Assembly: GCF_003312875.1 (NCBI RefSeq)
Contig: NZ_CP015163.1
Coordinates: 7,006,001-7,070,000 of the forward strand
Direction of reading: 5' to 3'
Length of the DNA: 64,000 nucleotides
DNA from: Amycolatopsis albispora
GTDB lineage: Bacteria; Actinomycetota; Actinomycetes; Mycobacteriales; Pseudonocardiaceae
Of the stretch, positions 14,472 through 45,654 are shown one piece after another; within the stretch, counting starts at the first letter, position 1, and the number at the start of each line of letters is the position of its first letter. The notes below the pieces were generated by a model. It saw only the letters and a program-made list of their open reading frames with translations, did not search any database and was not told the DNA's origin. The translations under genes and the position numbers were made by a program.

Positions 14472-15998
14472 ATGAGCACACGCCTTTCCCGTCCGCGCGC
14501 GGCCGCGATCGGGGTGGTCGCCGCCGGGGCGGCGGCCGCGGCCGGGCACCTGCTGTCCGCGTTCCTCGGGCGGAACTCGTCACCGGTGGTCGCGGTCGGG
14601 AACACCGTCGCCGAGTTCTCGCCGGGCTGGCTGACCGAGTTCGGCAAGGAAGTCTTCTACGTCTACGACAAGCTCGCGCTGTTCGTCGGCATGGGCCTGG
14701 TGATGCTGGTGCTGGCCGCGGTCGCCGGGCTGGTCTCGCGGGCGTCGCGCACGCCGGGGCTGGTGCTCATCGGGGCGTTCGGTGTGCTCGGTGTGCTGGC
14801 CGTGCTGCGGCGGCCGGATCTCGGGCAGCTGGCGATCCTCGCGCCGCTGGCCACGCTGGTCGTCGGCTGCGGGGTGTTCTCCTGGCTGCACGGGCGGGCC
14901 GTCGCGGAGGAGGCCGTGGACGGCGGGCTGACCCGGCGCCGGTTCCTGGTCGGCGGGGCCGGGGTCGCGGCGGGTGCCGGGGTGGCCGCGCTGACCGGTG
15001 AGGTGATCGGCGTGAGCCGCGACGCGGAGCTTTCGCGGGCAGAAGTCGGTTCGCTGGTGCCCGCGCGGCCCGCGCCGGCGATCCCGGCCGACGCCGACTT
15101 CCGCAAGCTCGGCACGCCCGCCTTCCTGACCCCGAACGCGGAGTTCTACAAGATCGACACCGCGTTGTCACTGCCGCAGGTGCGGGCCGAGGACTGGCGG
15201 TTGCGCATCCACGGCCTGGTAGACCGGGAAGTCACGGTCACCTACGCGGACATCCGTTCCCGGCCGCTGGTCGAACGCGCGGTCACGCTGTGCTGCGTGT
15301 CGAACGAGGTCGGCGGGGACCTGATCTCGACTGCCACCTTCGTCGGCGTGGACCTGGCCGACCTGCTCAACGAAGCGGGGGTGCGCCCGGGGGCCGAGCA
15401 GCTGTTCTCCACCAGTGCGGACGGCTGGACCTGCGGCACGCCGATCTCCGCCGTGCTGGACCCGGGGCGCGGCGCGATGCTGGCGCTCGGCATGAACGGG
15501 GAACCGCTGCCGGTGAAGCACGGCTTCCCGGCGCGGCTGGTGGTGCCGGGGCTGTACGGCTACGTGTCGGCCACCAAGTGGGTCACCGACCTGGAGGTGA
15601 CCACCTGGTCGGCGCGGCGGGCGTACTGGCTGGAGCGCGACTGGGCGCGGGAGGGGCCGGTGAAGACGCAGTCACGCATCGACGTGCCGAAGCCGTTCAC
15701 CACGCAGGCGGCGGGGAAGACCGTGGTCGCCGGGATCGCGTGGGCGCAGCACACCGGCATCGACCGGGTGGAGGTGCGGCTGGACCAGGGCCCGTGGGTG
15801 CCCGCGACGCTGACCACGGAGGTGAACGCGGACACCTGGCGGATGTGGTGGGTGCAGCTGGACGTGCCGCCGGGGCCGCACCAGGTGTACTGCCGGGCGG
15901 TGGACCGGTCGGGCTACGTGCAGACGGGGGAGGTCCAGGGCACCGTGCCGGACGGGGCCACCGGCTGGCACTCGATCTCCCTCACCGCGACGGCCTGA
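14472..15998 (+). CDS. Membrane-anchored molybdopterin-dependent oxidoreductase (sulfite-oxidase family)
   Basis: The 508-residue protein has four hydrophobic segments in residues ~10-140, then a Tat-like RRRFLVGGAGVAAGAGVAAL (residues ~153-175), the sulfite-oxidase-type Mo-binding domain (residues ~200-380, with AVTLCCVSNEVGGD carrying the Mo-ligand Cys) and an Ig-like Mo-co dimerisation domain (GIAWAQHTGIDRVEVRLD; C-terminal EVQGTVPDGATGWHS). The catalytic part should be outside the cell, exported folded with its cofactor. The electron partner is not encoded next to it. The gene ends against a palindromic repeat broken by an IS110 element. Confidence 0.88.
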   Translation: MSTRLSRPRAAAIGVVAAGAAAAAGHLLSAFLGRNSSPVVAVGNTVAEFSPGWLTEFGKEVFYVYDKLALFVGMGLVMLVLAAVAGLVSRASRTPGLVLIGAFGVLGVLAVLRRPDLGQLAILAPLATLVVGCGVFSWLHGRAVAEEAVDGGLTRRRFLVGGAGVAAGAGVAALTGEVIGVSRDAELSRAEVGSLVPARPAPAIPADADFRKLGTPAFLTPNAEFYKIDTALSLPQVRAEDWRLRIHGLVDREVTVTYADIRSRPLVERAVTLCCVSNEVGGDLISTATFVGVDLADLLNEAGVRPGAEQLFSTSADGWTCGTPISAVLDPGRGAMLALGMNGEPLPVKHGFPARLVVPGLYGYVSATKWVTDLEVTTWSARRAYWLERDWAREGPVKTQSRIDVPKPFTTQAAGKTVVAGIAWAQHTGIDRVEVRLDQGPWVPATLTTEVNADTWRMWWVQLDVPPGPHQVYCRAVDRSGYVQTGEVQGTVPDGATGWHSISLTATA

Positions 15999-16020
15999 TG
16001 TCACGAATGAAGCTTCTATG

Positions 16021-17049
16021 TCAAGTGAGGTCGGTGGTGAGTGCTCGGTAGATGGTGTTGGCGAGGTGGCGTTTGAGGGCGCGGAGGGCGGCTTTGGTGG
16101 TGGCGTGGGGGTGGTGTTTGGTCCAGTTGTCGCGGTAGGTGCGGGCGGGTGGGTGGTGGGTGAGTTGGGTGATGGCGATGCGGTGGAGGCAGGTGTTGAG
16201 TTGGCGGTTGCCGCCGCGGTTGAGGCGGTAGTGGGGTTTGTTGGCTGTCCAGGTGGGGATGGGTGCGGTGCCGGTGTGCATGGCGTAGGCGGCGGGTGAG
16301 CGGAAGCGGGTGATGCCGGCGGTTTCGCCGATGATTTTCGCGGCGAGGACGGTGCTGACGCCGGTGATGGCCAGCAGGGTGGGGGCCAGGGGCTGGACTC
16401 GGGTGCGGAGTTGGTGTTCGAGCTGGGTGATCTGCTGGGTCAGGGTGGTGATCTCGGTGAGCAGGTCCAGGGCGAGGTCGCGGCGGACGCTGGCGGGCAG
16501 GGTGGACAGGGCGGTGGTGAGGGTGTGCTGGGCGCGGGGCCCGGTCAGGCGGGGGTGGGTCTGGTCCAGGGCGGGGTCGAGGTCGTGCAGGTGCCAGCGC
16601 AGTTGGTTGATGCTGGCGGTGCGGCGGTTGACCAGGTGTTCGCGCCGGTCGGAGAGCAGGCGCAGGTCCAGGGCGGTCTGGTCCAGGTGTGCGGTGGGCA
16701 GGTCGGGTTCGCGCAGGGCGGCGCGGGCGATGGCCAGGGCGTCGATCGGGTCGGATTTACCGCGGGTGCGGGCGCTGGCGCGGCAGGCGGCCATCAGTTT
16801 GGGTGGGACCCAGACCACGGTGGCGCCGGTGCCGATCAGGGTGCGGACCAGTCGCCCGGCCACGCCGCGGCCGTCTTCGACCGCCCAGCGCGGCCCGGTG
16901 CCGAACTGGGTGGCCCAGGACCGCAGCCGCAGCAGCCCGTCGGGGTCGGCGGTCACGGTTTTCTGCCCCAGGCGGCGGCCGGTCTGATCGACCGCGACCG
17001 CGGTGTGGCTGGACTTGTGCGGATCGATGCCAATGACCACCATGGACAC
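16021..17049 (-). CDS. IS110-family transposase (DEDD RuvC-like plus Tnp domain)
   Basis: The 342-residue protein has the N-terminal RuvC-like DEDD set at D9 (VIGIDPHKSS), E58 (WAVEDGRG), D100 and D103 (KSDPIDALAIA), a helical middle, and the C-terminal Transposase_20 domain (LLAITGVSTVLAAKIIGETAGITRF ... LNRGGNRQLNTCLHRIAITQ). The residue aligning with the catalytic Ser of the family (the S in TAPI-x3-S) is Thr268 here (TAPIPTWTAN). GTG 17049 is chosen for its AGGAAC site; ATG 17043 is an alternative. Whether the element can still move is therefore uncertain. Confidence 0.9.
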   Translation of the reverse strand: MSMVVIGIDPHKSSHTAVAVDQTGRRLGQKTVTADPDGLLRLRSWATQFGTGPRWAVEDGRGVAGRLVRTLIGTGATVVWVPPKLMAACRASARTRGKSDPIDALAIARAALREPDLPTAHLDQTALDLRLLSDRREHLVNRRTASINQLRWHLHDLDPALDQTHPRLTGPRAQHTLTTALSTLPASVRRDLALDLLTEITTLTQQITQLEHQLRTRVQPLAPTLLAITGVSTVLAAKIIGETAGITRFRSPAAYAMHTGTAPIPTWTANKPHYRLNRGGNRQLNTCLHRIAITQLTHHPPARTYRDNWTKHHPHATTKAALRALKRHLANTIYRALTTDLT

Positions 17050-17089
17050 CGCGTGTGTTCCTTCCCTAGCCGGAGAACATGCGTCTTTT

Positions 17090-17250
17090 CCGGGCCGGGC
17101 TGGTCGGACACACCTCAGTCGAGGTTGATGGCGTATGCCCACGCTTCTATCAAGTCAGGCCAGCCAGGCCCGGACCTTGATCACGCTGGACAATTCGTTC
17201 GCAAGCCAGCAACGGCAGTGGCTTTCAGAGTCACCACGCGATCAAGACCG
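17090..17250 (-). ncRNA. Predicted IS110 bridge RNA
   Basis: Reading toward the transposase, the first loop is closed by CTTGATC/GATCAAG (plus 17240-17246 with 17176-17182) and holds GAAAGCCAC (17226-17218), equal to the left target half, then ACGAAT (17198-17193), complementary to the right target half. The second loop is closed by a 12-base stem with one mismatch (17160-17171 with 17092-17103) and holds ATAGAAGC (17150-17143), equal to the element's right end, then ACTGAG (17119-17114), complementary to its left end. Order and strand sense match the target-loop then donor-loop plan of IS621. Transcript ends are guesses. Confidence 0.8.
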
Positions 17251-17352
17251 GACCCTAACCGCCCACCACGAGCGGCCACACCAACCCTGACACTGAGTGG
17301 CTTTCGAGACGCGAAACGTCTCGAAAGCCACATTCGTGACATGGGGGGCGGC

Positions 17353-32062: not shown

Positions 32063-32117
32063 TGTCACGAATGTGGCTTTCGAGGCGTTGAGCGTCTCGA
32101 ATGTGGCTTTCGTGACA
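32063..32117. repeat. Palindrome copy R3, right-arm core inverted
   Basis: Same 55-bp plan as R2 (7-bp outer, 11-bp core, 7-bp inner, 5-base loop, mirror), but the right core reads AATGTGGCTTT instead of AAAGCCACATT, so both cores point the same way and only the outer and inner 7-mers can pair (inner with one change). Confidence 0.88.
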
Positions 32118-45599: not shown

Positions 45600-45654
45600 C
45601 GTCACGAAAGCCACATTCGAGACGCCAGACGTCTCGAAAGCCACATTCGTGACA
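45600..45654. repeat. Palindrome copy R6, left-arm core inverted
   Basis: Outer GTCACG, core AAAGCCACATT, inner CGAGACG, loop CCAGA, inner CGTCTCG, core AAAGCCACATT, outer CGTGACA. Relative to R2 the left core is inverted. It is nearest the end of pxpA, which converges from the right. Confidence 0.88.

Follow-up and report, generated by a model that had tools for sequence, protein, structure and literature searches.

In the window, a 64,000-nucleotide stretch of DNA, we identified an element that is best explained as a recently mobile member of the IS110 group, and whose left end would encode a bridge RNA aimed at the arm of a hairpin repeat (probability about 0.92). This reading draws on the anatomy of the element, a conserved RNA fold, guides that covary with their targets among relatives, complementary handshake bases and the position of 8/8 genomic copies on the same target. 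Counting against it are a mismatch in the right guide, the absence of the perfect target, a Thr-Ala pair in the recombinase and donor guides that hardly vary. In the proposed mechanism, the left noncoding end would be transcribed into the bridge RNA, whose target loop would pair with the two strands of GAAAGCCA-C-ATTCG in the hairpin arm and whose donor loop would pair with the joined ends of the element itself. Recombination between the circle junction and the hairpin arm would take place at a single C common to both and leave the target unduplicated, the recombinase presumably using a strand-exchange chemistry like that of IS621. The parts of the element are the following.

16010-17297, minus strand: complete IS110-group element of 1288 bp (ends shared by all 8 copies, flanks different in each; the shared core C is assigned to the left end at 17297)
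16021-17043, minus strand: recombinase gene, 340 aa plus stop, with DEDD residues D7, E56, D98 and D101 and T266-A267 at the nucleophile motif (Pfam, NCBIfam, motif)
17044-17297, minus strand: noncoding left end with the putative bridge RNA (two-loop fold conserved in 16 relatives)
16012-16019, minus strand: right end ATAGAAGC, matched by the left donor guide (sequence)
17292-17297, minus strand: left end CTCAGT, complementary to the right donor guide (sequence)
16019-16024, minus strand: TTGACA in the right end, possible -35 box of a circle-junction promoter (sequence; function by analogy with IS621)
17284-17289, minus strand: CAGGGT, possible weak -10 box, 17 nt after TTGACA in the joined circle (sequence)

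We infer RNA expression, a circle-junction promoter and present activity by analogy with IS621. The recombinase matched PF01548 and PF02371 (DEDD RuvC-like and Transposase_20 domains), both above the Pfam cut-off, and the NCBIfam model NF033542, 'IS110 family RNA-guided transposase', with 177.9 bits for a cut-off of 140. Its residues D7, E56, D98 and D101 are invariant among 10 aligned relatives. The noncoding DNA amounts to 254 nt upstream of tnp versus 11 nt from the stop codon to the right end, which is the long upstream noncoding region of the IS110 group. Eight full copies of the element were found in the host genome (9.12 Mb, single contig), differing by at most 2 bases from the window copy. 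L002 is identical to the window copy and the other six are 1 or 2 bases off; shared differences form the further pairs L003/L006, L004/L005 and L007/L008. Thus L001-L008 comprise four sequence variants with exactly two copies each. A segmental duplication was ruled out by the eight different flanks.

At the G--P----SG motif (described in PMC11187229), the window recombinase has T266-A267 and neither Ser-Gly nor Ser-Ser. Because the Ser-Gly pair of the IS110 group is lacking, the filing of the element in this group rests on its domains, its noncoding region and its target features. Among 125 scored loci we counted SG 74, SS 22, TA 6, AG 4, SA 2, TG 1 and QA 1, with 15 left unscored by the pattern; the scoring skipped 13 loci. 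All 6 TA loci belong to the window element and cover 5 of its 8 copies. The 4 AG loci are two copies from Pseudonocardia dioxanivorans counted twice, with identical tnp genes (0/1044 differences); in these loci, L183 and L170 (the same as L093 and L094), the nucleophile residue is Ala and the guides match their targets less well.

Thr-Ala could mean lost activity, the copies being relics of a decayed element. The prevalence of SG and SS among the scored relatives points this way, as does IS621, which has Ser-Gly where the window element has Thr-Ala and in which the serine is the essential nucleophile, its mutation abolishing recombination (PMC11208158). We nevertheless consider decay unlikely. 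The eight copies are nearly identical and none of their differences falls on the motif; therefore, the Thr-Ala version itself has spread. A protein search of the host genome at E <= 1e-60 returned only these 8 copies (10 candidates scored), and transposases of IS1111 elements are described as carrying SG or TG and occasionally TA (PMC11187229).

The hairpin repeat into which the window copy is inserted lies on both sides of it.

17297-17342, read on the minus strand: left part of the interrupted repeat, with left target GAAAGCCA plus core C (junctions of the 8 copies)
15998-16009, read on the minus strand: right part of the interrupted repeat, with right target CATTCG at 16004-16009 (junctions of the 8 copies)

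In 8/8 copies, the insertion site falls between GAAAGCCA and CATTCG, and the junctions read GAAAGCCA-CTCAGTG on the left and AGAAGCTT-CATTCG on the right. The coordinates, ends, orientation and target given in a preliminary description of this DNA were confirmed. When the flanks were rejoined, the repeat was restored without duplication in each of the 8 cases, the specific target and lack of duplication being those of IS110 elements. The 16-base target GAAAGCCACATTCGTG has 605 genomic sites (306 + 299), while its backwards control has 0 sites in the host genome. It belongs to a REP-like hairpin some 50-60 bp long, in which stem variants are compensated, and forms an arm of this hairpin, of which there are about 300 in the host genome; REP-like is used here in the general sense of an abundant extragenic palindrome rather than for a named REP family. 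Folding the empty site for 5 of the 8 insertions gave z-scores from -6.0 to -9.6. None of the 8 sites lies within an ORF passing the high-GC3 filter, and at L004, L005, L006 and L008 the nearest filter-passing ORFs are convergent. These many landing sites may be harmless for the host, as the preliminary description had proposed.

L002 was considered as an off-target copy and rejected, since one arm segment is flipped there while the guide-matched bases through CATTCG are kept. Flipped-arm repeats number 44 in the genome at up to 1 mismatch. At 32068-32112 and 45606-45650 of the window and at L205-L213, the middle segment of the hairpin arm is flipped between the 4-bp inverted ends CGAA/TTCG, and both arms therefore read in the same direction.

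We then located the putative guides and the stems that would enclose them in the noncoding left end.

17236-17246, minus strand: 5' side of the target-loop closing stem, CTTGATCGCGT (alignment of relatives)
17218-17226, minus strand: left target guide GAAAGCCAC (position; follows the target across relatives)
17196-17201, minus strand: right target guide CGAACG in the conserved register, pairing with CATTCG at 5/6 bases (register scan; handshake bases)
17194-17195, minus strand: presumed handshake bases AA, complementary to donor TT at 16010-16011 (complementary in 35/38 types)
17193-17198, minus strand: ACGAAT, right target guide of the preliminary description, in a register that the relatives do not support (register scan)
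17176-17186, minus strand: 3' side of the target-loop closing stem, GCGTGATCAAG (alignment of relatives)
17160-17173, minus strand: 5' side of the donor-loop closing stem (alignment of relatives)
17143-17150, minus strand: left donor guide ATAGAAGC (position; comparison of donor guides)
17114-17119, minus strand: right donor guide ACTGAG (position)
17090-17103, minus strand: 3' side of the donor-loop closing stem (alignment of relatives)

The left ends of 16 of the 27 listed loci were aligned, and the alignment gives a 5' stem-loop, then a target loop, then a donor loop, in the layout of IS621. In the consensus structure, 98.1% of the cells pair, versus 22-50% in slid registers, and two-sided changes were observed in 66 cells versus 22.8 +/- 4.1 in shuffles (0/500 as high); both values are biased in favour of the fold, which was tested on the alignment from which it had been derived. 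Compensatory two-sided changes occur at 10/13 pairs of the target-loop stem among the 16 relatives. The donor-loop stem is mostly invariant and is only weakly tested because it hardly varies. Thus, the two loops with closing stems previously described for the window sequence are conserved across relatives. The folding check that had been proposed gave a divided answer: covariation in relatives agrees with the structure, while the single-sequence fold is unremarkable (z -1.59, with 14/200 shuffles folding as well) and does not by itself support it. A first consensus fold, incomplete at the 3' side and pairing the left end with the donor loop, was replaced by the two-loop fold. An RNA described in Rfam was rejected, the only two matches being microRNAs far below their gathering scores.

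Read in the transposase sense, the 254-nt noncoding end contains, in this order, a single occurrence of each of the words GAAAGCCAC, ACGAAT, ATAGAAGC and ACTGAG. When these 254 nt were dinucleotide-shuffled 20,000 times, the words were present in 33, 622, 13 and 1470 shuffles respectively, and all four in order in 0/20,000. This agrees with the earlier statement that four ordered matches are unlikely by chance, in a test that is only rough because the words had been chosen beforehand in the preliminary description. From this and from the reassignments and permutations among relatives given below, we rejected chance as the origin of the guide matches. The same guides are carried by 8/8 copies, none of which sits in an unrelated target. 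As in IS621, guides are complementary to both target and donor, the right target guide with one mismatch. Three of the four guides first proposed stood (GAAAGCCAC, ATAGAAGC and ACTGAG); ACGAAT lies 4 nt off the conserved register.

This register was determined by a scan of 8 guide types from 14 loci. Pairing of the right guide was best with its last G on the core C, with a mean of 5.1/6, and the next-best register, its own one-base slide aside, reached 2.3-2.4/6. As the conserved register is by far the best in the 8 types, ACGAAT is displaced by 4 nt, and the right target guide is most likely CGAACG. In this register the window guide has one mismatch, a guide C opposite a target A, next to the core C; the site that would match perfectly, GAAAGCCACGTTCG, has 0 occurrences in the host genome, and GAAAGCCACATTCG has 647. 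The window element might instead use ACGAAT within an otherwise correct bridge RNA, and ACGAAT does pair at 6/6 bases (with ATTCGT) versus 5/6 in the conserved register. We consider this improbable, since the corresponding +4 register averages 2.3-2.4/6 versus 5.1 across the 8 types, part of the word lies within the backbone AAYTGTCC conserved in close relatives, and its use would break the AA/TT handshake complementarity.

Handshake guides are expected to be complementary to donor bases (PMC11208158). Among types with at least 5/6 right-target matches, taken in the register of best match, 35/38 show complementarity between the two bases that follow the right guide and the two donor bases that precede the core base (TT/AA 23, AA/TT 7, AT/AT 2, CT/AG 2 and TA/TA 1). 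Donor and target share one core base only in the window element, a C, and the preceding base agrees with the target at the left junction and with the donor at the right one. The target base after the core base varies between A, T, G and C over 14 loci. A shared two-base CT core was therefore rejected, unlike in IS621, where CT is strongly preferred in both donor and target (PMC11208160). The one-C core would fit IS621 top-strand cleavage after position 9, if this C corresponds to position 9.

With the bridge RNA as the preferred reading, guides should change with targets, a check that the preliminary description had suggested, and relatives with other guides were found at other, matching targets. 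For the 8 types of the register scan, 6/40320 reassignments of the left guide were at least as good when a one-base offset was allowed, the true order included (22/40320 without offset), and 2/40320 were at least as good for the right guide, the true order included. The wider set comprised those 61 of 133 loci that have both a recognisable left-guide anchor and a left junction, after duplicates were discarded, and 54 of them served for the right guide. Matches averaged 8.0/9 for the left guide versus 4.7 when permuted, and 5.5/7 for the right guide versus 3.5, each with 0/5000 permutations as good; both guides also held in relatives below 54% identity alone (45 and 40 rows, 0/5000), in permutations that ignore relatedness throughout. 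The left guide was matched at only 4/9 bases in L138, L122 and L161. Donor guides are nearly constant among relatives: the left donor guide equals the right end over 7 bases in 18/25 types, and the right-donor word matches at 6/6 in 6, 5/6 in 16 and 4/6 in 3 of 25 types.

The guides of several close relatives match the hairpin repeats of their own hosts. GAAAGCCACATTCG is present in 11/80 genus genomes, with 647 sites in the host (G000), 135 in G066, 49 in G074 and 10 in G004, and 0 in G007, G053 and G047. GAAAGCCACTTTCG has 295 sites in G007 and 139 in G053, where the elements carry the right guide GAAAG, and also 119 in G079. GAATGACNCATTC has 218 sites in G047, whose element carries the guides GAATGAC and GAATG, and 13 in G027. 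The flanks of L042 (G007) are the same as those of L087 from A. keratiniphila, and those of L043 (G047) the same as those of L088 from Amycolatopsis sp. 2-2; with two genus-mates tied to named records in this way, the host is probably an Amycolatopsis too. G066 has no element match at E <= 1e-20 despite its 135 sites. In G074, L071 retains only bases 149-447 of a closely related element and abuts a hairpin of the same kind. In G079, two copies (L082/L079 and L085/L074) each carry a further insertion of about 1.4 kb, at almost identical positions within tnp.

We folded 37 chosen sites, including 5 of the 8 window-type copies. The median z-score was -6.6 for 14 sites of elements with at least 70% identity versus -0.1 for the 23 chosen others. 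Among other hosts, the sites of L091 and L182 are hairpins (z -5.3 and -7.5), that of L043 is less clearly one (z -2.9), and no signal came from L169 (z -1.3), which is another site of the L182 type. The L070 type of G079 is inserted at AAATGTGGCGT, which is no hairpin (z 1.6, -0.4 and -0.5), and its target is rare, with 6 sites of AAATGTGGCGTG. G079 nevertheless has 119 sites of GAAAGCCACTTTCG, and the L070 type counts against tracking of host repeats. That the recombinase protein rather than an RNA recognises the hairpin, by shape or sequence, with guide matches as by-products or chance, is very improbable: most sites of close relatives are indeed hairpins, but guides change with the target even at non-hairpin sites such as those of the L070 type, and the ordered four words never arose in shuffles.

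The more distant relatives include a sister clade with another kind of target. Start codons were surveyed at 102 of the 133 loci (14 lack the right-end motif; the rest left out are duplicates or have short flanks). In 36 of the 85 distinct loci below 54% identity, the right-end AG[AG]AG is followed after 3-8 nt by a start codon with at least 60 open codons behind it, and the distance is exactly 6 nt in 34/36. A TAnnnT box 10-14 nt before the element's CAGTG is also present in 25 of the 55 loci with a left junction. The corresponding figures at 54% identity or above (n=17) are 4 and 1. Left guides of the sister clade often read TAGCGTCGC and right guides CATGCG. These elements sit between the TAnnnT box and the start codon, with guides matching both, and their right end sets AGGAG 6 nt before the host start.

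Sister-clade elements placed in this way: L044, L045, L046, L075, L080, L083, L086, L096, L101, L104, L106, L113, L128, L130, L135, L136, L141, L150 and others

The spacing from TAnnnT to the start would fit leaderless promoters. The sister clade is aimed at TAnnnT...ATG, apparently the start of leaderless genes. A limited literature search found no paper on an IS110 element with a leaderless-gene target. IS900, of the IS110 family, resembles the sister clade only, by its reported insertion at translation start signals, its motif being CATGNNNNNNTCTCCTT instead of TAnnnT and a start codon (PMC8141618).

Earlier publications have described both bridge RNAs and the targeting of REP sequences by IS110 elements. 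IS621 of E. coli likewise has a left-end bridge RNA with a target loop then a donor loop, left guides matching one strand and right guides the other, handshake bases, and insertion in a REP-like repeat (PMC11208160, PMC11208158). ISCro4, the one solved IS110-type chain found, matched the window protein weakly (E 0.00066). Copies of ISPpu9, ISPpu10, ISPa11 and ISRm19, of the IS110 family, lie in REP sequences (7/7, 7/7, 6/6 and 4/4), in other hosts and repeats and, in that account, at a time when guides were not known (PMC1525189). In ISEc11 and ISEc21, an RNA of the long noncoding region (seekRNA) selects the target, and natural re-aiming between relatives is described for ISEc11/ISXne4; their targets differ, and the noncoding region of IS1111 elements lies downstream of tnp (PMC11187229). 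The present case is ordinary in kind and, for a purely computed one, well supported. Its bridge RNA would be functional or recently functional and aimed at a genome-wide palindrome, as first proposed, with 8/8 copies lying in this palindrome.

Beyond the single element, we propose tentatively, at somewhat less than even odds, that an RNA-guided IS110 lineage re-aims its bridge RNA in each new host at an abundant and tolerable feature. The Amycolatopsis branch would be directed to species-specific hairpin repeats and the sister branch to the place where the -10 box of leaderless genes meets the start codon, its right end supplying a ribosome-binding-like AGGAG. The core would be a single base and, in the window element, the nucleophile a Thr. 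In this series, the recombinases of a single genus are closely related, yet they have guides to different repeats. It forms a clean natural set of guides and targets with which one may ask how bridge RNAs change target in nature, how much mismatch is tolerated, whether a CT core is needed and whether Thr can stand in for the catalytic Ser. This element and the related ones are also candidates for programmable recombinases of high-GC actinomycete origin.
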